From: Massilimicrobiota sp. An134
Lineage (GTDB): Bacteria > Bacillota_I > Bacilli_A > Erysipelotrichales > Coprobacillaceae
Direction of reading: 5' to 3'
Length of the DNA: 41,911 nt
NCBI RefSeq assembly: GCF_002160815.1
Contig: NZ_NFLH01000021.1
Location: 1-41,911, forward strand
Position 1 is the first letter of the stretch, and every line of letters begins with the position of its first letter. The translations under genes were made by a program, and so were the position numbers. The notes under the pieces were generated by a model that ran no database searches, was not told the origin of the DNA, and saw nothing but the letters and a program-made list of their open reading frames with translations. Below, one piece after another: positions 955 through 14,990 of this stretch.

Positions 955-1025
955 GCGTGGAAAGATAATCATAAAAAGATTGCTTTCTATGGATATATGT
1001 TATTTAATAAAAGCAAGAGGTGAAA

Positions 1026-2495
1026 ATGAAAATGAAATTCAAGTCTTATATTCACTCATTGTTGATTACAGTTATATTATTAGTTATAGCATCCTGTGTA
1101 GGCTTGTTCTTTCAATATTTAGACTGGTCTGAAATAACGATTGTTTTAATTTATATTATTTCTATACTGATCATCTCCTTATTAACAAAAGGATATATCT
1201 ATGGAATAATTAGTTCTATTATTGCAACATTTTTATTTAATTATTTCTTTACAGCACCTTATTATACATTATTATTTTATGATTCCAGATATTTTATAAC
1301 TTTTATATCTATGACATTGACCTCTATTATTGTCAGTACATTAACCTCACGTATCCAACTTTCCCAGAATCAGGCATATAAAAATGCTCAAAATATGAAA
1401 ATGCTTTATGAATTGACAAATCATCTTTCAAAGATTACAGACAAACAGAGACTTTATGATGAAGTCTATCATATATTAAATCAATATTTTCATTATCCAA
1501 TAGATTTCATCTTTTTAGATTATCATAATGAACATAAACATCAAGATATTATTGACTGTTTTCGTAATGAAAATCAAAAATATATTATCAAAGATATGTA
1601 TATTTTCTTTCCTTTATATGGTGTTTCACGATTATTGGGAATTCTCTTTTTTAAAGATGATAATTTTCAACATATGGATGAAACCCAAAAACATATCTTT
1701 TATCTTATGATAGATAATATTTCATTAGCCTTAGATCGTATTTATTCAATAGAGGAACAGTTAAAATTAAATGAAGCAAGTATTAAAGAACATTATCGCA
1801 GCAATCTTTTACGCTCCATTTCTCATGATTTAAGAACACCGTTATCTGGTATTATGGGAACGTCAGAAATGATTATGGGAATCAACCAACCAACAAGTTC
1901 CTCATATCATTTAGCACAGGATATTTATCAAGAGGCTGATTGGTTGTATCTTATGGTACAAAATATTTTGAGTTTAACTAAAGTACAAGAAGGAAAACTT
2001 GTGATTCATAAAGAATATGAAGCGATAGAAGAAGTTATAGGAAGTGCTATTTCCCATGTGCAAAAAAATATGTCTGAGAGGCAGATTGAGGTTCATGTTC
2101 CTGACGAAGTCATGATGGTTGCAATGGATGCACAACTGATTCAGCAAGTCATTATTAATTTACTGGATAATGCCTTTAAACATACTTCAAATAATGAAAA
2201 AATAGTCATTAATGCTTACAAACAAGATCATCAATGTTATCTTGTTGTAGAGGACTACGGGGATGGTTTTCTTGGTGAGGATCCTCAAAAACTTTTTGGA
2301 ATGTTCTATACACAACATCAGTCTTATTCTGATTCCTTTAAGGGAGTAGGACTTGGTTTAACAATATGCAAAGCTATTATAGAGGCACATCAAGGAACTA
2401 TTGAAGCCAAAGAGTGTCTGAATCATCAAGGAGCACAATTTATAATAACATTACCAATGGAGGATGAATATGAATCAAACAATATTAGTTGTTGA
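1026..2495 (+). CDS. KdpD-like sensor histidine kinase lacking KdpD/USP input domains
   Basis: A membrane histidine kinase of 489 residues that matches only the C-terminal half of KdpD. About four membrane helices lie in the first 110 residues (DUF4118-like), then a GAF-like region, then the H-box SHDLRTPL with His near residue 267. The ATPase N box LLDNAFKH, the G1 box DYGDGF and the G2 box GVGLGL follow. Full KdpD is about 850-900 residues; the N-terminal KdpD and universal-stress domains are absent. The ATG at 1026 is chosen because AAGAGG lies five bases before it; a GTG at 1020 overlaps that site. It overlaps the following regulator gene, so the pair is probably co-translated. Expected role: phosphorylating that KdpE-type regulator in response to K+ or turgor; the signal is inferred. 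Confidence 0.85.
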   Translation: MKMKFKSYIHSLLITVILLVIASCVGLFFQYLDWSEITIVLIYIISILIISLLTKGYIYGIISSIIATFLFNYFFTAPYYTLLFYDSRYFITFISMTLTSIIVSTLTSRIQLSQNQAYKNAQNMKMLYELTNHLSKITDKQRLYDEVYHILNQYFHYPIDFIFLDYHNEHKHQDIIDCFRNENQKYIIKDMYIFFPLYGVSRLLGILFFKDDNFQHMDETQKHIFYLMIDNISLALDRIYSIEEQLKLNEASIKEHYRSNLLRSISHDLRTPLSGIMGTSEMIMGINQPTSSSYHLAQDIYQEADWLYLMVQNILSLTKVQEGKLVIHKEYEAIEEVIGSAISHVQKNMSERQIEVHVPDEVMMVAMDAQLIQQVIINLLDNAFKHTSNNEKIVINAYKQDHQCYLVVEDYGDGFLGEDPQKLFGMFYTQHQSYSDSFKGVGLGLTICKAIIEAHQGTIEAKECLNHQGAQFIITLPMEDEYESNNISC

Positions 2496-3159
2496 AGATG
2501 ATGTACAAATTAGAAAATTTATTTGTTATTGTTTAGAAAATAACAATTATCAATACATTACTGCCAGCAACGGACAAGATGCGTTACGAAAAATTTTTTA
2601 CGAAAATATAGACTTAATATTACTTGATTTGGGATTGCCAGATATGGATGGAGTAGATATTATTCAAAGATTACGAGAATTCTCAGAAATTCCTATTATT
2701 GTTGTTTCTGCTAGAGATAAAGACAAAGACAAAGCAGATGCATTAGAATTAGGGGCAGATGATTATTTAACCAAACCCTTTTCAGCAACGGAATTAGTGG
2801 CAAGGATTAAAGTGGCTTTTAGACATTTTTATCGTTATAATCAAGTTCAAATTCAAACATATTATAAAGTCAAGGATTTATCTATTGACTTAGATAAAAG
2901 GCAAGTCTATTTAAATGATCAACCTATTCATGTAACACCATTAGAATATCAATTACTTGTTTTATTTTTTAAGAATGCAGGAAAAGTTTTAACAACAGAT
3001 ATGATTATTGAAGAAATATATGGAAAAGGGTATGGACATGATACACAGGCACTGAGAGCTCTTATGGCAGGATTAAGAAGAAAAATTGAAAAAAATCCTG
3101 CAACACCACAATATATACTTACAGAAATAGGTGTTGGATATAGAATGGTTGATGAATAA
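2470..3159 (+). CDS. kdpE: KdpE-type response regulator (copy 1)
   Basis: An OmpR/PhoB-class regulator of 229 residues. The receiver domain has the acidic pair DD at 10-11, phospho-acceptor Asp53 in LLDLGLPDMDG and Lys102 in TKPF. The C-terminal winged helix ends with the typical GVGYRM. ATG 2470 is preferred over ATG 2464 because the GGAGG at 2459-2463 is correctly spaced only for the former. The start lies inside the kinase gene just upstream, implying translational coupling and a cognate pair. A terminator follows. It is one of three KdpE-like regulators in the window and the most diverged from the other two. Confidence 0.88.
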   Translation: MNQTILVVEDDVQIRKFICYCLENNNYQYITASNGQDALRKIFYENIDLILLDLGLPDMDGVDIIQRLREFSEIPIIVVSARDKDKDKADALELGADDYLTKPFSATELVARIKVAFRHFYRYNQVQIQTYYKVKDLSIDLDKRQVYLNDQPIHVTPLEYQLLVLFFKNAGKVLTTDMIIEEIYGKGYGHDTQALRALMAGLRRKIEKNPATPQYILTEIGVGYRMVDE

Positions 3160-3349: not shown

Positions 3350-5308
3350 TTACATATCTTCATGTTCCAAAGATTCATTTAATTGTTGTTTTAAAATCAT
3401 TTCATTATGAGATTCTTGTTTATAAATTGCATCAATAGCTAAAGCGATTTCATTTAAAATAGCTTTCAATAAAGCTTTTTCATAAGGTGCTAAATCCTCA
3501 CCTTGTTCCATAGCAATACCAATCACTGCAAAAATATTGTCCTTTTTTCTAACAGCAAGATATAATCCTTTAGCAGCGGGAAGAGTGCTGGTTGAAACAC
3601 CGGCATTTTTATTGTTGACAAGAACCCACTGGGCTACAGCTAACTCTTTATGATTAATGTATTCTCTTTTAATATCTGAAGTGATATGTGGACCATAAAT
3701 CATAGGTTTTTGGAGTGTGTTGTTCTTAACGGGATAAAAAATAATTATACGATTTAACATTTTATATAGTTGAAAACATGTAATATTCATAATATCTTGA
3801 TAAGAATTGCTCGTTTGTAAATTTTGACTTGTTTCTAATAGAATATCCATACTATGTGCATGAATAGAGGCTAAAAGGTTTTCTTTCTTTAATTTGTGAG
3901 CCATTGTACTAATGGATATTGATACAATGAACATGACAATAAAAATGAATGGATAATCAGATGAGGACATATTAAAGGTAAATCTTGGATCTATGAAGAA
4001 GTAGTTAATAGCAATAATGCTTAAAAAGGTTGAGATGAGATTGTATATTGGATAATATGTGACAATACCAATGAAACATGAAGCTAAAACATAGAGTAAA
4101 ATAATATTTGTTGTATTGACATGTATTTCATAGAAAATAAAACCTAGTAATGTAGTAATGAGAAAAATAGATAGAGCTAAAATTGTTTCTTTTAATGAAA
4201 ATTTGATAAATTTTGATAAATCTACAGATTTCTTTTGTGCCGTTGAACGATGATCTGGAATAATATAAATTTCTAGGTTTGGAGCATTCATCGTTAATTG
4301 ATCGACAATGGTACTTCTTTTGATTAAAGTTGGTTTTTGATAAGAGCGACCTAACACTAATTTAGAGACACCACTTGTTTTGGCATATTGACCTATTTGA
4401 AATGCAACATCATCCCCATATGTAGAAACAATATCTGCTTTGAGATGTTTGGCTAAATTTAAATTCGACTGAAGTTGAGCTAAGGCTTTCTTAGAGAGAT
4501 TATTACTTTTTGAAGTTTCAACATATAAAGCTGTAAAATCTGCATGAAAAGCCTGAGCCATACGTGAAGCTGTACGAATAACTTTTTGATTAGTTGGAGA
4601 ACTTCCAATGCAAACAAGAATATGCTCTTTAGCAAAAGGTTGATTTTGTTTGGCTGTTACGATATTAACACGATCAGCACAACGTCTTAATGTAATCTCT
4701 CTTAAAGCTGTCAGATTATCTCTAATAAAGAAATGTTCCAAAGCTCTTTTGGCTTGTTGTTTATGATAGATTTTCCCTTCTTTTAATCTCTCAATTAAAT
4801 CATCAATTTCAATATCTACTAATTTGACATCATCAGCATCATCAAAAACATGATCAGGTATTCTTTCATTAACCTTGATTCTTGTAATACTTTCAACAAT
4901 ATCATGTAGACTTTCTAAATGTTGTACATTCACTGTTGTATAAACATCAATACCCGCTCTTAATAATTCTTCAATATCACTATAACGTTTTTGATGTCTT
5001 GAACCATGAACATTGGTATGAGCTAATTCATCGACTAGAATAAGTTGAGGATGTCTTTTTAAAGCACCATCTAAATCAAATTCATAGAAAAGACGATCGC
5101 GATAAATAATTTTCTTTTTAGGAATCTGTTCTAGACCATAAATAAGATCGGTAGTCTCTTTACGATCATGCGGCTCTATATACCCTATAACAACATCAAC
5201 ACCTTGTACAGATTTTTGATGAGCAGCTTCAAGCATCGCAAATGTTTTACCGACACCAGCACAATAACCGAAAAATATTTTTAGACGTCCTTTTTTTATT
5301 GTTTCCAT
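3350..5308 (-). CDS. kdpD: KdpD-type sensor protein without histidine kinase domain
   Basis: A protein of 652 residues that begins like KdpD and stops before any kinase. Domain order: KdpD domain (about 1-215) with P-loop GYCAGVGKT (GKT at 20-22) and VDELAHTN; a universal-stress-protein fold (about 230-360); four membrane helices (DUF4118, about 375-485); and a GAF-like region to the end. No H-box or ATPase boxes are present. The start is ATG 5308 because AAGGAAG lies eight bases upstream; a GTG at 5317 overlaps that site. It is divergent from the kdpFABC operon and shares its control region. In the universal-stress domain GSS, 20 residues, FTALY resembles the SxS-X20-FTAxY c-di-AMP site described for Staphylococcus aureus KdpD. 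Likely a K+/c-di-AMP sensing subunit acting with a separately encoded kinase (inference). Confidence 0.85.
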   Translation of the reverse strand: METIKKGRLKIFFGYCAGVGKTFAMLEAAHQKSVQGVDVVIGYIEPHDRKETTDLIYGLEQIPKKKIIYRDRLFYEFDLDGALKRHPQLILVDELAHTNVHGSRHQKRYSDIEELLRAGIDVYTTVNVQHLESLHDIVESITRIKVNERIPDHVFDDADDVKLVDIEIDDLIERLKEGKIYHKQQAKRALEHFFIRDNLTALREITLRRCADRVNIVTAKQNQPFAKEHILVCIGSSPTNQKVIRTASRMAQAFHADFTALYVETSKSNNLSKKALAQLQSNLNLAKHLKADIVSTYGDDVAFQIGQYAKTSGVSKLVLGRSYQKPTLIKRSTIVDQLTMNAPNLEIYIIPDHRSTAQKKSVDLSKFIKFSLKETILALSIFLITTLLGFIFYEIHVNTTNIILLYVLASCFIGIVTYYPIYNLISTFLSIIAINYFFIDPRFTFNMSSSDYPFIFIVMFIVSISISTMAHKLKKENLLASIHAHSMDILLETSQNLQTSNSYQDIMNITCFQLYKMLNRIIIFYPVKNNTLQKPMIYGPHITSDIKREYINHKELAVAQWVLVNNKNAGVSTSTLPAAKGLYLAVRKKDNIFAVIGIAMEQGEDLAPYEKALLKAILNEIALAIDAIYKQESHNEMILKQQLNESLEHEDM

Positions 5309-5360
5309 ATCTACCACTTCCTTATTTTTTTATTGTACATAAATTTTATAAATAAAAAAG

Positions 5361-5411
5361 TTTTAATAAAAATTTTAATATGATTTTAATATGGGGGTTT
5401 GGTGTTTTAAC
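5361..5411 (+). promoter_or_regulatory. Phased TTTTAAY direct repeats (probable KdpE operator)
   Basis: TTTTAAT occurs at 5361, 5373 and 5384 and TTTTAAC at 5405, that is at steps of 12, 11 and 21 bases, one or two helical turns. Such phased direct repeats are the usual binding pattern of OmpR/PhoB-class regulators. They lie just upstream of the likely kdp -10 element and within the region shared with the divergent kdpD. Assignment to a KdpE is inference. Confidence 0.55.
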
Positions 5412-5433
5412 ACTTTCTTTATTTTATCTATGC

Positions 5434-5679: not shown

Positions 5680-7428
5680 ATGTTACAAATAGTATGTACA
5701 TTACTTGTCTTCATGGTGATTATTTTTCCTATTGGAAAGTATGTTTATCATATAACAACTCACAAGAAGACATTTGCAGATCCACTTTTTGATCGTATTG
5801 ATAATGGAATATATAAGATATTAAAAATTGATACATCAAATATGGGGTGGAAAAAGTATGCATTATCTTTATTGTTATTTAATGCATGTTTAGTTTTTGT
5901 TGGTTATCTTATTTTAAGAATTCAATCAATAGGTATATTCAATCCTAATGGTATTGAAGGGATGGAAGCAACATTATCTTACAATACAATTATTTCGTTT
6001 ATGACAAACACAAATTTACAACATTATTCTGGTGAATCAGGTTTATCTTATTTATCACAAATGTTTGTCATCATTATGATGATGTTTACATCTGCAGCAT
6101 CTGGATATGCTGCATGTGTTGCAATGGTTCGAGGAATCTTAGGTAAACGAATGGGTAACTTCTATTGTGATGTGACACGAATTACAACACGTTTCTTGAT
6201 TCCTATGGCTTTCATTGTTGGATTGTTCCTTGTATCTCAAGGAGTACCTCAAAATTTGAGTCCAAATATAACACTAACAACAATTGAAGGAAAATTGCAA
6301 GATATTGCTTCTGGACCAATAGCGGCACTGGAATCAATTAAACACTTAGGAACAAATGGTGGAGGTTTCTTAGGGGCAAACTCATCAACACCACTTGAAA
6401 ATCCAACAGTTTTATCAAATATTGCTGAATTATATTCAATGATGTTCTTACCAGCAGCTTGTGTATTCACATTTGGTCATATGGTTTATGATAAATATCA
6501 AGAAAGAAAAGCTAAAAAATTGGATACAACAGCTTCAAAAGAATTTGATAAACCAAGTTCTAAAGTTTGGTTAGGTAAAGAAGGACGTACAATTTTTGCG
6601 GCAATGTCAATTTTGTTTGTTATTGGTTTAGCACTATGTTTCTTTAGTGAAAGTCAAGGAAATAGTGCAGTTGCATCAGCTGGAATTACTCAAACAATTG
6701 GAAATATGGAAGGTAAAGAAGTAAGATTTGGAGTTGCCCAGTCTTCGCTCTTTACAACTGTAACGACATCATTTACAACAGGAACAGTTAACAATATGCA
6801 TGATACATTAACACCATTAGGTGGATTAGTTCCATTATTGCATATGATGTTAAATGTTGTCTTTGGTGGTGTTGGCGCAGGTCTTATGAATATGCTGATT
6901 TATGCAATTATTGGTGTATTTATTTGTGGTTTAATGATTGGACGTACACCAGAGTATCTAGGTAAAAAAATAGAAGGAAAAGAAATGAAATTAGCAGCAC
7001 TATGTATTATTATTCATCCTTTATTAATATTAGGATTTAGTGCTTTAGCTGTTTCAGTTCAAGCAGGATTAGATGGAATTACAAATCCTGGTTTTCATGG
7101 ATTAACACAGGTATTGTATGAATTTACATCATCTGCAGCTAACAATGGTTCTGGATTTGAAGGATTAGCGGATAATACAGTATTTTGGAATGTTACTTGT
7201 GGTTTAGTTATGTTTTTAGGACGTTATCTATCAATTATTATTCAATTAGCTATTGCTGGAAGTTTATTCAATAAAATTGATGTGAACGAGTCAATTGGTA
7301 CATTAAAAACAAATACTTGGACTTTCGCTATTATCTTAGTTTTTGTTGTTTATATTTTTGCAGCATTAACATTCTTACCAGCTTTAGCTCTTGGACCAAT
7401 TTCAGAGGGATTGACCTTAGGTCTATAG
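5680..7428 (+). CDS. kdpA: Potassium-transporting ATPase subunit KdpA
   Basis: The K+ channel-like subunit of the high-affinity KdpFABC pump, 582 residues with about ten membrane helices, a normal length for the family. The selectivity-filter repeats are visible, notably GTNGGGFLGANSSTP, plus later FTTGTVNNMHD and SSAANNGSGF. It binds K+ from outside and passes it to KdpB. It starts at ATG with GGAGGAGAG upstream and is followed 20 bases later by kdpB. Expression is probably induced by K+ limitation through the repeats upstream of the operon. Confidence 0.96.
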   Translation: MLQIVCTLLVFMVIIFPIGKYVYHITTHKKTFADPLFDRIDNGIYKILKIDTSNMGWKKYALSLLLFNACLVFVGYLILRIQSIGIFNPNGIEGMEATLSYNTIISFMTNTNLQHYSGESGLSYLSQMFVIIMMMFTSAASGYAACVAMVRGILGKRMGNFYCDVTRITTRFLIPMAFIVGLFLVSQGVPQNLSPNITLTTIEGKLQDIASGPIAALESIKHLGTNGGGFLGANSSTPLENPTVLSNIAELYSMMFLPAACVFTFGHMVYDKYQERKAKKLDTTASKEFDKPSSKVWLGKEGRTIFAAMSILFVIGLALCFFSESQGNSAVASAGITQTIGNMEGKEVRFGVAQSSLFTTVTTSFTTGTVNNMHDTLTPLGGLVPLLHMMLNVVFGGVGAGLMNMLIYAIIGVFICGLMIGRTPEYLGKKIEGKEMKLAALCIIIHPLLILGFSALAVSVQAGLDGITNPGFHGLTQVLYEFTSSAANNGSGFEGLADNTVFWNVTCGLVMFLGRYLSIIIQLAIAGSLFNKIDVNESIGTLKTNTWTFAIILVFVVYIFAALTFLPALALGPISEGLTLGL

Positions 7429-7448: not shown

Positions 7449-9506
7449 ATGAGTCGTCAAGAAAAAACAAAATTTATTACAAAAGATATTCTTGGTTCTT
7501 CTATCAAAGGGGCTTTTGTAAAATTAAATCCTATGTATATGATGAAAAATCCAGTTATGTTTGTTGTTGAAGTTGGATTTGTCATTTGTACTATTCTTGT
7601 CTTTTTCCCACATTTATTTAATGATAAAGGAGATAATTTAAGTTTATATAATGCGATTGTTGCGATTATTTTGTTTATTACTTTATTGTTTGCTAACTTT
7701 GCTGAATCTGTTGCAGAAGGACGAGGAAAAGCACAGGCTGAAACATTAAAGAAAACAAAGAAAGATACAAAAGCTCGTCTTATCCACGAGGATGGATCAG
7801 AAGAAATGATTTCAGCTAGTGAATTACAAAAAGGTGATGTTGTTCTCGTAAAAGCTGGAGAATTAATTCCAAATGATGGTGAAATCATCGAAGGAATTGC
7901 GAGTATTGATGAATCTGCGATTACAGGTGAATCGGCACCAGTCACTAAGGAAAGTGGGGGAGATTTTGCTTCAGTCACTGGAGGAACAACGGTTGTTTCA
8001 GACTGGATTAAAGTGGAAATTACTTCTGAACCAGGGCATTCATTCTTGGATAAAATGATTGCTTTAGTTGAAGGGGCTTCACGTCAAAAAACACCTAATG
8101 AAATAGCTCTAAACACATTATTAGTTTCATTAACAATTATTTTCTTAATCGTTATTGTAACACTTTATCCAATGGCTAATTATTCAGAAGTACAAATACC
8201 AATTTCAACATTAATCGCATTAACTGTATGTTTGATTCCTACAACAATAGGAGCTTTATTAAGTGCTATTGGAATTGCGGGAATGGATAGAGTAACACGT
8301 TTTAATGTTATTGCTATGTCAGGAAAAGCAGTTGAAGCATGTGGTGATGTTGATACAATGATTCTTGATAAAACAGGAACTATTACTTTTGGAAATCGTT
8401 TGGCTAGTGATTTTATCCCTGTATCAGGTATTAAAAAAGAAGAACTCACTGAATACGCTTGGATTGCATCTATAGGTGATGACACACCTGAAGGAAAATC
8501 TACTGTTGAATTGGCAGAAAAATTCGGTTGTCAATTACAAAGAAAAAATTATGAAAATGCTGAATTTATTGAATTTACTGCTGCTAGTAAAATGAGTGGT
8601 GTGAATACGACTGATGGACATGTTGTTCGTAAAGGTGCCGGTGACGCTATGATTCAATATGTTAAAGAAAATGGTGGTAAGGTACCAGATGATTTAACAT
8701 TAAAAGTAGATGAAGTTTCAAAATTTGGTGGAACACCTTTGGTTGTATGTGCAGATTATAGAATTTTAGGTGTTATTTATTTAAAAGATACTGTAAAACC
8801 TGGTTTAGTAGAACGTTTTGAACGTTTGCGTAAAATTGGTATTAAAACTATTATGTGTACTGGAGATAATCCATTAACTGCTGCGACTATTGCTGCTGAA
8901 GCAGGTGTTGATGGTTATATTGCGGAATGTAAACCAGAAGATAAAATTGAAGCAATTAAAAAAGAACAATCTGAAGGAAAGATTGTAGCCATGACTGGTG
9001 ATGGAACAAATGACGCACCCGCACTTGCCCAAGCTAATGTTGGTATTGCTATGAATAGTGGGACATCTGCTGCCAAAGAAGCTGCAAACATGGTTGATTT
9101 AGATTCTGACCCTACAAAGATCTTGGAAGTTGTAGAAATTGGTAAACAGTTGTTAATTACTCGAGGATCATTAACGACTTTCTCAATTGCTAATGATATT
9201 GCAAAATACTTTGCAATTATACCAGCCATGTTCCAAGCTGTTATACCACAATTAAGTGTTCTTAACATCATGGGATTACAAACATCTGAAAGTGCTATTT
9301 TATCTGCATTGATTTTTAACGCAGTGATTATTCCATGTTTGATTCCACTAGCAATGAAAGGTGTTAAGTATAAACCTATGAGTGCATCTAAAATGCTTGG
9401 AAGAAATATGCTAATCTATGGATTAGGTGGAGTGATTTGTCCATTTTTAGGAATTAAGATTATTGATATGATTATTGCACCATTATTAGTTTTATTAGGA
9501 TTATAG
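7449..9506 (+). CDS. kdpB: Potassium-transporting P-type ATPase subunit KdpB
   Basis: The ATP-hydrolysing subunit, 685 residues. The phosphorylation motif DKTGTIT has its Asp at residue 307, the same number as in Escherichia coli KdpB. TGES lies at 159-162, whose Ser162 is the inhibitory phosphorylation site known in E. coli. The GDGTND hinge and a C-terminal membrane bundle are present. It couples ATP hydrolysis to K+ uptake through KdpA. It lies 20 bases after kdpA with GAAAGGGG before the start, and 10 bases before kdpC. Confidence 0.97.
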
Positions 9507-10259: not shown

Positions 10260-10973
10260 ATGCAGGCGAATATATTGGTTGTAGAAGATGATCATTCAGT
10301 TAGAAATCTTGTGTCTACAACTTTGCAGACACATGGATATCAATTTGATGCTATGATTAATGGTGAGAGTGCTTTATTGGCTATGACATCACATCATTAC
10401 GATATTATTTTATTAGATTTAGGATTACCTGATCAAGATGGTATAGATATTATCAAAACAGTTCGTACGTTTTCGGTTATTCCCATCATTGTTTTAAGTG
10501 CAAGAAGTAGTAATGAAGATAAGATAGCTGCATTGGATGCAGGAGCAGATGATTATTTAACAAAACCATTTAATATTGATGAACTTTTAGCAAGAGTTCG
10601 TTCAACTTTACGTAGAGCTGAATATTTACAAAATATGACGACTCAAGAAGAAACGGTTTTTGAAAATGGTGATTTAAAAATTAATTATTTATCAGCGACA
10701 GTATCTTTAAAAGGAAAAGAAATACATTTAATGCCAATAGAATATAATTTGCTTTGCCTTTTAGCAAAAAATGTTGGTAAAGTCTTAACTTATCAGTTTA
10801 TTTTAGATAAAATATGGAAAAATGCATTGGAATCAGATTTGTCCTCATTACGTGTTTATATGACAACATTAAGAAAAAAGATTGATAAACAGTATGCGGA
10901 TGATCAAAAATATATTCAAACGCATATAGGTATTGGTTATCGTATGGTTAGACAAAAAAAGAGTGGTGAATAA
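10260..10973 (+). CDS. kdpE: KdpE-type response regulator (copy 2)
   Basis: An OmpR-class regulator of 237 residues with receiver Asp53 in LLDLGLPDQDG, TKPF, and a winged helix ending GIGYRM. AAAGGGG and AAGGAAG precede the ATG. It starts a three-gene unit, regulator, full-length KdpD, regulator, with only five bases before kdpD. Its winged helix shares long matching stretches with the third regulator (FENGDLKI, then IHL-x-PIEY, SLRV, YIQTH), so the two look like duplicates flanking the kinase. Likely a KdpD partner controlling K+ uptake; which sites it binds is not known. Confidence 0.88.
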   Translation: MQANILVVEDDHSVRNLVSTTLQTHGYQFDAMINGESALLAMTSHHYDIILLDLGLPDQDGIDIIKTVRTFSVIPIIVLSARSSNEDKIAALDAGADDYLTKPFNIDELLARVRSTLRRAEYLQNMTTQEETVFENGDLKINYLSATVSLKGKEIHLMPIEYNLLCLLAKNVGKVLTYQFILDKIWKNALESDLSSLRVYMTTLRKKIDKQYADDQKYIQTHIGIGYRMVRQKKSGE

Positions 10974-10978
10974 TATTC

Positions 10979-13513
10979 ATGAATGAAGAAAAAAAACATC
11001 AAGGGCGTTTAAAAATATTTTTTGGCTATGCAATGCATACTGGAAAAACATATGCAATGTTACAAGAAGCTAAGGAATTGACGGATATGTCTAATGATGT
11101 GGTTGTGGGGTATATAGAAAATGTAGAAGGGTTAGAGACGATTTTAAAGGGGTTGGAATGTGTTCCCAATCGTCAGTTAATGCTATCTTCACCAGAGGTA
11201 GATATAGATGCTATTTTAGCGAGACATCCACATATAGTATTGATTGATCATATGGCTCATACAAATAGAAATGGCTCTAGGCATTTAAAACGTTATCAAG
11301 ATATTCTTGAAATACTTGAAGCAGGAATTGATGTTTATACAACTGCCAATGTACAAGATATAGTGAGCTTACAAGATGATATTAATAAGATAACTGGAGA
11401 GCATTCAAGTGAAACAATACCTGATTATCTTTTTGAACAAGCACATCAAGTTAAGTTTATTGATAATGAGCCACAATATGAGCATCATTATTCAGTAGAA
11501 ACTTTAAAAGCATTAAGAGAGTTAGCAATCAAATGTTGTGCACAAAGAATAAAAAAGTTAACTTCCTTACCTTCTAAATCTCATTTTATAAATTCTGAGC
11601 ATATCTTAGTCTGCTTGTCACCATCACCTTCAAATGCGAAAGTCATAAGAACAGCAGCAAAACTTGCAAATACATATCAAGCAAGATTAACAGCTTTATA
11701 TATTGCACCATTGGATAAAAAGCTTTCTAAAAAAGAATATCAGTATCTACAAGAAAATATATCTCTAGCAAAAGACTTACAAGCACAAATTGAAGTGCTT
11801 AATGATAATAAGGTTGTATTTGAAATAGCTGAATATGCTAGAATCTCTGGGGTTACCAAAATTGTGCTAGGTCAAAGTCCAACGCATTTTTTTCAACGTT
11901 CTTCATTATCTGAGCAATTAGTTCGATTAGCACCACAACTAGAAATATATGTTATACCTTATATTGATGAAAGGTCTATTTTTAAGTTAGTAAGACCACA
12001 ATTAACACTTAATCGTCAAGATTTCATGCGAACAGCAGGTATGTTGATTTTGTCCACATTGATTGGTGGAATCTTTTATTATCTTGATTTTAAAGAATCT
12101 AATATTATACTGATTTATATTTTAGGTGTTTTAATGACTGCATTGATTACGACAAGAAGAATTTATAGTTTAGCATCTTCATTCATTAGTGTCTTGATTT
12201 TTAATTTTCTTTTTACAAGTCCAAGATTAACATTGAGAGCTTATGATTCAAGGTATATCGTGACATTTATAATCATGTTTATTGTTGCTTTTATTACAAG
12301 CAGTATGACAAATAAGTTACAAACAAGTGCAAAAGATTCAGCACAAAATGCTTATCGTATGAAAATATTATTAGAAACAAATCAGAAACTACAGAAGGAA
12401 AAAAATAAAGAAGGAATTATTTCTGTAACATGTCATTCACTTATGAAATTATTACAAAGGGATATTATTTTCTATCCTGTTTCAAAGAATAATTTAGAAA
12501 AACCACTTATTTTTTGCCAATCGCCAAAGGATAGATCCATATTTCAAAATGAAGAAGCTGTTGCAAAATGGGTTCTCAAAAATAATAAACATGCTGGAGC
12601 GACAACGAAAACATTATCCAATGCATTATGCCTTTATTTAGCAGTACGTATTGGAGAAAAAATTTATGGTATTATCGGTATATATATAGATGACAAACCC
12701 TTAGATTCATATGAAAATAATATTATGCTTTCTATCTTAGGAGAATTAGCTCTTTCTTTAGAAAATGAAAGTGTTATTAAGGAAAAAGCAACCGCAGATT
12801 TAAAAGCCAAAAATGAACAACTCAGAGCTAATCTTTTACGTTCTATATCTCATGATTTGAGAACTCCTCTGACTTCTATCTCTGGTAATGCAGGAATTTT
12901 ATTAAGTACGGGTACAATCTTAGATGAAGATAAAAAAAAGCAGTTATACAGCGATATTTATGATGATTCTTTATGGCTTATTAATCTTGTAGAAAATTTA
13001 TTGTCTGTAACTCGTATAGAAAATGGATCAATGAATTTGAATCTAAAAGTAGAATTAATAGAAGATGTGATTAATGAAGCACTTAAGCATATCAATACAC
13101 GCAGAATACAACATCATATTCAAGTTATTCAAGATGAAAATATATTACTTGCTAAAATAGATGCTAGACTGATTGTTCAAGTCATTATGAATATCTTAGA
13201 TAATGCTATCAAATATACACCTGATCATACAACAATAACTATACAGAGTTATCTTAAAGATAAAAACATCTATATTGATATTGCTGATGAAGGAAATGGC
13301 ATTAATGATAAGGATAAGAAGCATATTTTTGATATGTTTTATACTGTTAATCGTCAAGTCGCAGATAGTCGCAGAAGTTTAGGATTGGGATTATCTCTTT
13401 GTCAGTCCATTATACAGGCACATCATGGGGAAATTAAAGTTTATGATAATTCGCCTCATGGAACAGTTTTTCAGATATCTTTACCGGCACAGGAGGTAGA
13501 AATACATGAATAG
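10979..13513 (+). CDS. kdpD: Full-length KdpD-type sensor histidine kinase with degenerate KdpD domain
   Basis: Kinase of 844 residues: KdpD domain, universal-stress domain, four membrane helices (DUF4118, about 345-445), GAF-like region, then H-box SHDLRTPL (His near 625), N box ILDNAIKY, G1 DEGNGI and G2 LGLGLSL. The kinase half looks active, the N-terminal domain altered: the family P-loop AGVGKT is MHTGKT, DELAHTN is DHMAHTN, and the stretch before ALRE is shorter than in the other copy. The universal-stress domain retains SPS, 20 residues, LTALY, close to the c-di-AMP motif known from S. aureus KdpD. The last codons overlap the next regulator by 8 bases. Likely the main K+/turgor kinase here. 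Confidence 0.9.
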   Translation: MNEEKKHQGRLKIFFGYAMHTGKTYAMLQEAKELTDMSNDVVVGYIENVEGLETILKGLECVPNRQLMLSSPEVDIDAILARHPHIVLIDHMAHTNRNGSRHLKRYQDILEILEAGIDVYTTANVQDIVSLQDDINKITGEHSSETIPDYLFEQAHQVKFIDNEPQYEHHYSVETLKALRELAIKCCAQRIKKLTSLPSKSHFINSEHILVCLSPSPSNAKVIRTAAKLANTYQARLTALYIAPLDKKLSKKEYQYLQENISLAKDLQAQIEVLNDNKVVFEIAEYARISGVTKIVLGQSPTHFFQRSSLSEQLVRLAPQLEIYVIPYIDERSIFKLVRPQLTLNRQDFMRTAGMLILSTLIGGIFYYLDFKESNIILIYILGVLMTALITTRRIYSLASSFISVLIFNFLFTSPRLTLRAYDSRYIVTFIIMFIVAFITSSMTNKLQTSAKDSAQNAYRMKILLETNQKLQKEKNKEGIISVTCHSLMKLLQRDIIFYPVSKNNLEKPLIFCQSPKDRSIFQNEEAVAKWVLKNNKHAGATTKTLSNALCLYLAVRIGEKIYGIIGIYIDDKPLDSYENNIMLSILGELALSLENESVIKEKATADLKAKNEQLRANLLRSISHDLRTPLTSISGNAGILLSTGTILDEDKKKQLYSDIYDDSLWLINLVENLLSVTRIENGSMNLNLKVELIEDVINEALKHINTRRIQHHIQVIQDENILLAKIDARLIVQVIMNILDNAIKYTPDHTTITIQSYLKDKNIYIDIADEGNGINDKDKKHIFDMFYTVNRQVADSRRSLGLGLSLCQSIIQAHHGEIKVYDNSPHGTVFQISLPAQEVEIHE

Positions 13514-14216
13514 TCCAAAAATATTAGTTGTGGAAGATGATAAAGCCGTTCGTAATTTGATTGCTATTACATTACAGACAAGAAATTATAAATATATATT
13601 ATCTGATAGTGGAGAATCAGCTCTTCTAGAGTTTGCCTCTGAACATCCTGATGTTATCCTTCTAGATTTGGGATTACCTGATATAGATGGAATGGAAGTG
13701 ATTCAAAAAATTCGTGAAAAATCACAAATTCCAATCATTATTCTTAGTGCCAGAGGAGAAGAAAGTGACAAAGTGGCAGCTCTTGATGCTGGAGCAGATG
13801 ATTATTTGACAAAACCATTCTCGGTAGAAGAATTATTGGCTCGATTGCGTGTCGCATTAAGAAGAACAGAATATATATGGAATAGTGATGCAAAAAACAA
13901 CCATATATTTGAAAATGGAGATTTAAAAATTGATTATGCTTCAAGTTGTGTGACTCTTAAGGGAGAAGAAATTCATTTAACACCTATTGAATATAAGATA
14001 TTAAATTTGTTATCAAAAAATATCGGAAAAATTTTAACGCATACTTATTTAACACGAGAAATATGGGGAAGTGCTTTTGATAGCGATGTCGCTTCGTTAC
14101 GTGTTTTTATGGCTAATTTGCGTAAAAAGATTGAACCGGAAAAAAGTGGTGTGAGTTATATTCAGACACATGTAGGGATAGGTTATCGTATGATGAAGAT
14201 TGAAAAGAGTGATTAA
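13506..14216 (+). CDS. kdpE: KdpE-type response regulator (copy 3)
   Basis: Response regulator of 236 residues with receiver Asp54 in LLDLGLPDIDG, TKPF and an OmpR winged helix ending GIGYRM. It overlaps the end of the full-length kdpD by 8 bases, with AGGAGG inside that gene, so it is translationally coupled and is the most direct kinase partner. It is closely similar to copy 2, which lies on the other side of the kinase. Immediately after its stop begins an array of TTCTCACA repeats, a good candidate for autoregulation or control of the next gene by one of these regulators (inference). Confidence 0.9.
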   Translation: MNSPKILVVEDDKAVRNLIAITLQTRNYKYILSDSGESALLEFASEHPDVILLDLGLPDIDGMEVIQKIREKSQIPIIILSARGEESDKVAALDAGADDYLTKPFSVEELLARLRVALRRTEYIWNSDAKNNHIFENGDLKIDYASSCVTLKGEEIHLTPIEYKILNLLSKNIGKILTHTYLTREIWGSAFDSDVASLRVFMANLRKKIEPEKSGVSYIQTHVGIGYRMMKIEKSD

Positions 14217-14217
14217 A

Positions 14218-14267
14218 TTCTCACAGCATTCTCACACAAGCTTTTGTTTTCTCACACTCACTTCACA
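14218..14267 (+). promoter_or_regulatory. Phased TTCTCACA direct repeats (response-regulator operator)
   Basis: TTCTCACA occurs perfectly at 14218, 14229 and 14249, with a half-conserved copy (ACTTCACA) at 14260. The steps are 11, 20 and 11 bases. Two pairs with an 11-base period, about two turns apart, is the classic layout for PhoB/OmpR-class dimers. The last pair covers the -35 position of the promoter at 14278. Confidence 0.65.
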
Positions 14268-14277
14268 ATATATTTCT

Positions 14278-14283
14278 TATAAT
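14278..14283 (+). promoter_or_regulatory. Promoter -10 (TATAAT) of the TPR-protein gene
   Basis: A perfect TATAAT lies 26 bases before the chosen ATG. At the matching -35 position (14255-14260) there is CACTCA, not a sigma-A hexamer, and this region is covered by TTCTCACA repeats, as expected for an activated promoter. Confidence 0.6.
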
Positions 14284-14309
14284 AATAGTGAAGATAAGGA
14301 GTGAGTTAT

Positions 14310-14672
14310 ATGAAACAAAATAGAAATGAATATATAGTTTTAGAAAAATTAGGAGAAAAGGTTAAAAGTCTTATTGAAAAGGATCGTTCTGAATGTCAGG
14401 AGTTAGTTGTTCAGGCATTAGTGAATTATCCACATGCACCTCAACCACAGAATTTACTAGGCATTTTAGCAGAAAAACAAGGAGATTTAGCCCTAGCAAT
14501 GAAACATTATCGTGCAGCTTGGTCATTATCTCCTAATTACCGACCATCAAGAAAAAATATTGATCGATTGGTATCTTTATCAAGTTTTCAATGTTATTAT
14601 TATGATCAAGAGTGTTGTGAGATGGAAACGCAAGATTCTCAAGGATTGTTTAAAAGAAAAATTATTATATAA
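14310..14672 (+). CDS. Small TPR-like protein
   Basis: A cytoplasmic-looking protein of 120 residues. The central part (about 30-85) reads as two tetratricopeptide-like helical hairpins, including NLLGILAEKQGDLALAMKHY and a following W-x-L-x-P-x-Y-R-P. The C terminus carries several Tyr and Cys residues (CYYYDQECC). AAGGAG lies eight bases before ATG 14310; the in-frame GTG at 14301 overlaps that site. Alone behind its own promoter and the TTCTCACA array, it is a likely target of the neighbouring response regulators. TPR proteins mediate protein contacts; the partner is unknown. Confidence 0.7.
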   Translation: MKQNRNEYIVLEKLGEKVKSLIEKDRSECQELVVQALVNYPHAPQPQNLLGILAEKQGDLALAMKHYRAAWSLSPNYRPSRKNIDRLVSLSSFQCYYYDQECCEMETQDSQGLFKRKIII

Positions 14673-14759: not shown

Positions 14760-14990
14760 ATATTTAAAAAATCGTTGATCAGGAAGAGTAATTTCTTGAA
14801 CGCTTCAAGCGAGGTAGTACAGAGTGGAAGGCTACTAAGTGGAAAGGAATGAAACGCACCTGTGAGAGTCCATTGGAAATAGGAGTATAATGGAACGTAA
14901 CCTGCGTTAAGGGATAGAGTGGTTAGTTTTTCTAACAACTAGAGTGGTACCGTGTATATGCACCTCTGGAGAAATCCAGAGGTTTTTTGT
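14760..14990 (+). ncRNA. T-box riboswitch, probable tRNA-Arg specificity
   Basis: A T-box leader. Stem I begins with a GGAAGAGTA element near 14782-14790, and its distal part contains GAGAG-type closing sequence. The conserved T-box AGAGTGGTACCGTG is at 14941-14954, with the tRNA-end-binding bulge TGGTACC. In the likely specifier loop (GAAACGCACCTG, 14851-14862) the triplet CGC at 14855-14857 is an Arg codon, agreeing with argG downstream; ACG (Thr) overlaps it by one register. Uncharged tRNA-Arg would stabilise the antiterminator and switch on the arg operon. The loop assignment is by eye, not by folding. Confidence 0.88.
14962..14989 (+). terminator. T-box-controlled terminator before argG
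   Basis: ACCTCTGGA (14962-14970), loop GAAA, TCCAGAGGT (14975-14983), then a T run. Its left arm overlaps the CTCT that would close the antiterminator, so the two structures are mutually exclusive. Confidence 0.9.

Follow-up and report, generated by a model that had tools for sequence, protein, structure and literature searches.

A conserved four-box array in front of a small TPR-like gene of Massilimicrobiota sp. An134, a probable operator of a KdpDE-type system linked to potassium uptake

The window, by which we mean the whole stretch of 41,911 nucleotides of Massilimicrobiota sp. An134 DNA that was analyzed, carries genes for three KdpE-type response regulators (RR1, RR2, and RR3), two sensor kinases, a kdp operon, and a small TPR-like protein, the last preceded by an array of four direct repeats and a promoter (Table 1). 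The locus is nearly identical to that of Massilimicrobiota timonensis An13, the proteins of the TPR-kdp cluster being 99 to 100% identical. Divergent from the kdp operon, a KdpD-like protein is encoded on the minus strand (3350 to 5317), with a sensor domain and DUF4118 and no kinase-domain match. Directly behind the TPR gene lies a T-box leader (14766 to 14970; Rfam, 124.5 bits) that precedes argG and further arginine biosynthesis genes; this T-box and tRNAs were all that the search for RNA elements found.

Table 1. Positions of the array, its promoter, and the genes considered in the text
Feature	Position	Strand	Remark
Half-site 1, TTCTCACA	14218..14225	+	Spacing invariant in 7 family loci
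Half-site 2, TTCTCACA	14229..14236	+	11 bp from half-site 1
Half-site 3, TTCTCACA	14249..14256	+	31 bp from half-site 1
Half-site 4, ACTTCACA	14260..14267	+	Weaker copy, TCACA core intact
-10 box, TATAAT	14278..14283	+	10 bp past half-site 4
Ribosome-binding site, AAGGAG	14296..14301	+	Read off the sequence
Small TPR-like protein, 120 aa	14310..14672	+	ATG at 14310; heads the trk operon of most relatives
Four-box array of the kdp promoter, TTTTAATA	5373..5423	+	Similar geometry, other word
HK1, DUF4118-HisKA-HATPase sensor kinase	1020..2495	+	Paired with RR1
RR1, KdpE-type response regulator	2464..3159	+	Proposed binder of the array, 11 kb upstream of it
RR2, KdpE-type regulator	10260..10973	+	Regulator of the kdp cluster
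KdpD-type sensor kinase	10979..13513	+	
RR3, KdpE-type regulator	13506..14216	+	Immediately 5' of the array; rival binder

The sequence-only reading of this DNA had described three perfect repeats and one partial repeat in two pairs of 11-base period, 20 bases apart. Coordinates, shuffling, and conservation all agree with this: the half-sites start 11, 20, and 11 bp from one another, and their cores all lie in direct orientation, not as inverted repeats. Likewise, the perfect TATAAT was found, but the -35 element that the repeats were thought to overlap was not, as the hexamer 17 bp 5' of TATAAT is CACTCA (14255 to 14260), no recognizable -35 is present, and the array itself fills that position. 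The TTCTCACA 8-mer by itself is ordinary in the window (3 observed versus 3.0 expected), with all three copies inside the array. Among 20,000 dinucleotide shuffles of positions 14200 to 14310, none contained three TTCTCACA copies, a perfect 11-bp pair, or four TCACA cores at the array spacing. The array further shows what is expected of a tandem operator of the OmpR/PhoB type, namely, a direct-repeat period of 10 to 11 bp and a location at the -35 followed by a good -10 box.

A genome-wide search for the pair had also been proposed as a means to name the regulator. The perfect 11-bp TTCTCACA pair occurs a single time in its own 2.56-Mb genome, with no second promoter-placed perfect pair anywhere in it, while conservation across genomes is clear. 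Of the refuting outcome named beforehand, the lack of other occurrences thus applies within this genome, and the lack of conservation does not. When up to 3 mismatches were allowed, 41 matches were found in this genome versus 30 in the control, which is no clear enrichment. Five of the 41 were inspected besides the window (L002 to L006): L002, L003, L005, and L006 were rejected as further targets, all lying inside reading frames, and L004, a match with 2 mismatches, is situated between frames.

Four boxes precede the TPR orthologue in eight genomes of the family and in three of another family. The seven family loci compared agree in all four TCACA cores and in the spacing, and TATAAT or TACAAT follows about 10 bp on, with a shift of 0 to 1 bp. 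Across the order, the four-TCACA pattern with at most one mismatch was detected in 13 of 315 genomes (14 sites) and its reversed control in none; as the same four boxes recur before the orthologous gene at 11 of these 14 sites, the array is not a product of chance. Of 392 genomes sampled evenly from the phylum, 3 had the pattern (G000, G002, and G027), each carrying the TPR gene. The three sites without a TPR gene downstream are those of G078, G085, and G119 (contig C25), the first two adjoining ftsH-like genes. In two related genomes, array matches (L084, near 159; L085, near 9948) lie just beyond the 3' end of an ftsH-like gene and point at that gene, with no TPR gene found. At G119 (L086, 9902 to 9951), the four-box array is exact and has a -10-like sequence, but only short reading frames lie downstream; it is a possible second target or remnant. 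Judged by its sequence, the array is a real, conserved operator and in kind an ordinary one, composed of the tandem direct repeats of a presumptive OmpR/PhoB-type regulator. What is unusual, by the same measure, is its word, a four-box geometry common to paralogous, apparently potassium-responsive regulators, and the orphaned first gene in this species.

Orthologues of the TPR gene were identified in 11 of 43 family genomes, 8 of the 11 with the array upstream, and the gene is retained in only 2 of the 5 genomes of the genus. With a family profile, the gene was recovered from 42 of the order's 315 genomes and from 5 of 392 in the phylum sample, all five from the order and none from outside it. 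The 120-aa protein had been called TPR-like with a Tyr/Cys-rich tail, and the first part of that description held. Its predicted structure consists of helical pairs and a low-confidence tail (pLDDT, 83.8), as in a helical-pair TPR fold, and its family profile matches the TPR repeats of OGT (3.5e-15). The Pfam gathering score was missed (best match, TPR_2, 19.2 bits versus a cutoff of 27), and the top matches in a fold search were designed TPR proteins, none at E ≤ 0.001; these matches were to TPR proteins only and indicated no specific function. The Tyr/Cys-rich tail is not conserved as such among orthologues and does not stand as a feature; an acidic D-Q-D-like stretch is conserved.

Two TrkA-type genes and one TrkH-type gene come immediately after the TPR gene in the family relatives G014, G025, G027, G032, G033, and G037, and Pfam confirmed TrkA_N, TrkA_N plus TrkA_C, and TrkH at L021, L023, and L028. 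The first TrkA of the operon (L021, 10360 to 10797, and relatives) matches TrkA_N only and the second matches both TrkA_N and TrkA_C; the two genes are perhaps a split regulator pair. Among the 42 order genomes carrying the TPR gene, trkA lies directly 3' of it in 31 (G218 and G293 showing only trkA or part of trkA), trk genes are near it but not directly after it in 2 (G209 and G210), and neither trk nor kdp is beside it in 5 (G000, G002, G059, G187, and G188). In the other 4 (G015, G016, G035, and G238), the gene lies within or directly before the kdp operon, too few for it to be a constant part of that operon. It stands between kdpF and kdpA in G015, G016, and G035, with no array upstream. 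The placements between kdpF and kdpA at L026, L027, and L029 and between HK1-RR1 and kdp at L112 tie the TPR protein to Kdp as well as to Trk.

The TPR gene had been taken as the only gene under this promoter, which is true of the window but not of relatives, where the promoter would drive TPR-trkA-trkA-trkH. Phosphate or potassium had been suggested as the physiological link. The trk operon of relatives and the four kdp placements argue for potassium and not for phosphate, and no phosphate gene was identified at the array loci, where most neighbors were compared only with window and trk/kdp queries. Because the genes keep company with Trk and Kdp, the TPR protein most likely serves potassium uptake as a cytosolic accessory (or adaptor). 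In Longibaculum, the gene order is TPR-trkA-trkA-trkH, two genes, and argG; in the window, trk genes are absent between TPR and argG. A close TrkH was not found in G000 or G002, and G000 has one distant TrkH elsewhere in its genome. The simplest reading, we infer, is that the trk genes were lost in this lineage, the alternative being gain elsewhere.

The distribution of the three regulators points to RR1. At E ≤ 1e-75, every one of the family's 8 array genomes had an RR1 orthologue and none of the other 35 did (n = 43); the cutoff was of our own choosing, and the next, weaker family matches start at 9.7e-70. The TPR gene is likewise carried by all 18 order genomes whose RR1-like matches reach E ≤ 1e-78; matches at E ≤ 1e-60 occur in 78 genomes, among which the loci examined were those 18, other TPR-gene carriers, G059 (C7), and G247. 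HK1-RR1 adjoins the TPR operon at many loci. As RR1 and the TPR gene travel together, the match between RR1 and array is in part a reflection of gene linkage. RR2 was found at the kdp loci of G015, G016, and G035, all without an array. A tree of 46 regulators was built without G002 (a near copy) and without genomes having no complete regulator in the sequence retrieved from them (such as G236, G276, G302, and G188). In it, the TPR-linked rows, except those of G060, G089, and G118, fell into one 30-row clade (support, 99/98) distinct from the RR2 and RR3 rows; the RR1 subclade has 18 rows with a support of 89/96, below the starred level of the tool.

A weight matrix was trained on the seven family arrays only. 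In every one of the 11 RR1-subclade loci of the other family, its best site in the whole locus lay just 5' of the TPR gene. At loci without RR1, the TPR-upstream site ranked first in 3 of 21, with all scores at or below 6.4. It also ranked first at L159 of G236, a genome with the array and with no RR1 at E ≤ 1e-60, where the contig ends just upstream, before any regulator. The array in its strict form (no more than 1 mismatch in the 20 core positions) was present in 13 of 13 rows with the recognition helix ALRALMA[GA]LRRKI and in 0 of 20 other rows, a helix class that was defined after the sequences had been seen and that amounts to three independent comparisons (sign test, p 0.25). Two rows that the expression did not parse were scored as altered in this count, and their sequences show that both are. 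The correlation suggests, rather than independently proves, that the recognition helix of RR1 tracks the array word.

Throughout the order, the promoter layout consists of two 11-bp pairs 31 to 32 bp apart and a -10 box about 10 bp on, and the words follow the regulator clade: TTCTCACA with RR1, TTTTAAT at kdp, and elsewhere TTTATA-like words (in the sister clade of RR1, e.g., G295) or TTAACA-like words (in G060, G089, and G118). A motif-free scan for four mutually similar 8-mers at the array spacing plus a -10 box (both strands, 300 bp on each side of the gene start) had its highest-scoring hit of the locus beside the TPR gene at 25 of 27 loci; the exceptions were L112, where the weight matrix found the array, and L156. 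When 60 geometries were compared over 38 loci, peaks were obtained for an 11-bp period with the pairs 31 or 32 bp apart (20 and 17 loci, respectively). The remaining geometries reached at most 8 of 38 loci, except for a second peak at 13 bp/31 bp (14 of 38), which we tentatively ascribe to the CACA contained in the word. The window's kdp promoter carries no TTCTCACA array. The kdp promoters of the seven loci tested have four boxes arranged in a similar way, with words like TTTTAAT or TCTTAATA; this arrangement was the best on its own strand of the locus in three and third or fifth in the rest. In the G298-G309 group, the TPR promoter also has an inverted repeat between boxes 2 and 3 (L164, ~9362 to 9410; L166, ~6420 to 6466; L171, ~9283 to 9330), the arms of which change together (GGTGTTAAG..CTTAACACC and GATGTTAAT..ATTAACATC); this is perhaps a second operator.

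Taken together, the array, its conservation, the co-occurrence with RR1, the operon context, and the geometry make it probable that the array is the operator of HK1-RR1, a KdpDE paralogue dedicated to Trk-type potassium uptake, with phosphorylated RR1 as the activator and potassium as the presumed signal. Activators of the OmpR/PhoB type are established to bind as tandem dimers that contact RNA polymerase in place of a -35. Phosphorylated RR1 could occupy the array as two head-to-tail dimers, one per 11-bp pair, that lie 31 bp (three helical turns) apart on the same DNA face, stand in for the missing -35, and bring RNA polymerase to the TATAAT box that lies 10 bp farther on. The outcome in most relatives would be expression of TPR-trkA-trkA-trkH; in this species, with the trk genes missing between TPR and argG, the operator would drive the TPR gene alone.

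The sequence-only reading had seen in the TPR gene a dedicated output of the neighboring regulator. An operator-like array with one perfect site in the genome is consistent with a dedicated output, but the neighbor, RR3, is probably not the regulator concerned, as it was found at 3 of 7 nonredundant family array loci (the window, L022/L032, and L024) versus RR1 in 8 of 8 genomes. RR3, as the cognate of the KdpD at 10979, might still bind the array and activate the TPR gene, since it is physically adjacent to the array in the window and in G033 and belongs to the OmpR/PhoB-type family, which 11-bp direct repeats fit. We consider this improbable in view of its absence from the array loci of G027, G014, G025, and G037, its recognition helix, which differs from that of RR1, and the TTAACA/TTTAAC-like words that accompany RR3/KdpE-like regulators beside TPR-trk in G060, G089, and G118, where RR1 is missing. 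Use of the TCACA cores by another DNA-binding protein, such as one of the CRP/FNR type, appears far-fetched. TCACA is indeed one half of a CRP site, but CRP/FNR sites are inverted repeats (TGTGA-N6-TCACA), whereas the cores here are direct repeats with an 11-bp period, and the presence of the array follows RR1. The array was rejected as a CRP/FNR site on account of this direct orientation.

With RR1 as the binder, repression instead of activation is quite improbable. The array does overlap the -35 position, where repressors also sit; however, the lack of a usable -35 hexamer and the constant distance of ~10 bp to the -10 box both suit an activator, and a similar geometry is shared by the kdp promoter of the window, kdp being activated in other bacteria. 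It is conceivable, if rather doubtful, that the array-TPR unit of this species is a decaying, nonfunctional remnant after trk loss, as the trkA-trkA-trkH set found between TPR and argG in Longibaculum is absent here and just two of the five genomes of the genus retain the TPR gene. Against decay, M. timonensis An13 has the same array, -10 box, and protein, its gene differing by two silent changes, a weak argument between such close genomes; HK1-RR1 is also intact.

Activation by RR1, our preferred reading, would name the likely regulator, operator, and target of a potassium-uptake system in gut Erysipelotrichales. We are evenly divided over a broader proposal, namely, that the layout (11, 20 to 21, and 11 bp, with the -10 box ~10 bp on) was kept across the Erysipelotrichales while the word changed with the regulator, that as many as three KdpE paralogues of a single 14-kb locus are insulated from one another by operator word, and that the TPR protein is a new accessory factor common to Trk and Kdp uptake. 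Across these promoters, nature provides a series of paralogous response regulators that appear to have diverged, together with their operators, at fixed promoter geometry, which makes the gain of new DNA specificity by paralogous regulators directly testable. The promoters also draw attention to an uncharacterized TPR-like protein linked with Trk uptake as well as with Kdp uptake. No description of the TPR-trk operon or its operator was found in open-access literature.

Among known systems, the pho box of PhoB consists of 11-bp direct repeats in place of the -35 that end ~10 bp before the -10 box. The array resembles it in all three respects but differs in its word and in its association with potassium rather than phosphate genes. 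As in TrkAH/Ktr systems, the operon of relatives combines a TrkH pore protein with TrkA NAD-binding subunits (Pfam); unlike in those systems, TrkA is present as two proteins, of which the first lacks a TrkA_C match, a small TPR-like protein precedes the trk genes, and a two-component system of its own is linked to the operon. The canonical operator of KdpE is not what is found here, as the array has no TTTATA/TTTACA with 5 bp between them and does not control kdpFABC. The Escherichia coli KdpE half-sites are TTTATA and TTTACA, 5 bp apart (PMC3264566), a single AT-rich pair where the array has two pairs of the word TTCTCACA. Because the AT-rich words resemble this known E. coli site, TTCTCACA looks derived relative to the AT-rich KdpE words, the direction of change being our inference. 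The kdp promoter of the window, unlike the TPR array, has AT-rich four-box repeats. With the E. coli operator of kdpFABC (PMC3264566), the array shares a putative OmpR/PhoB-type regulator, the 11-bp direct-repeat period, and, in relatives, a potassium-uptake target.
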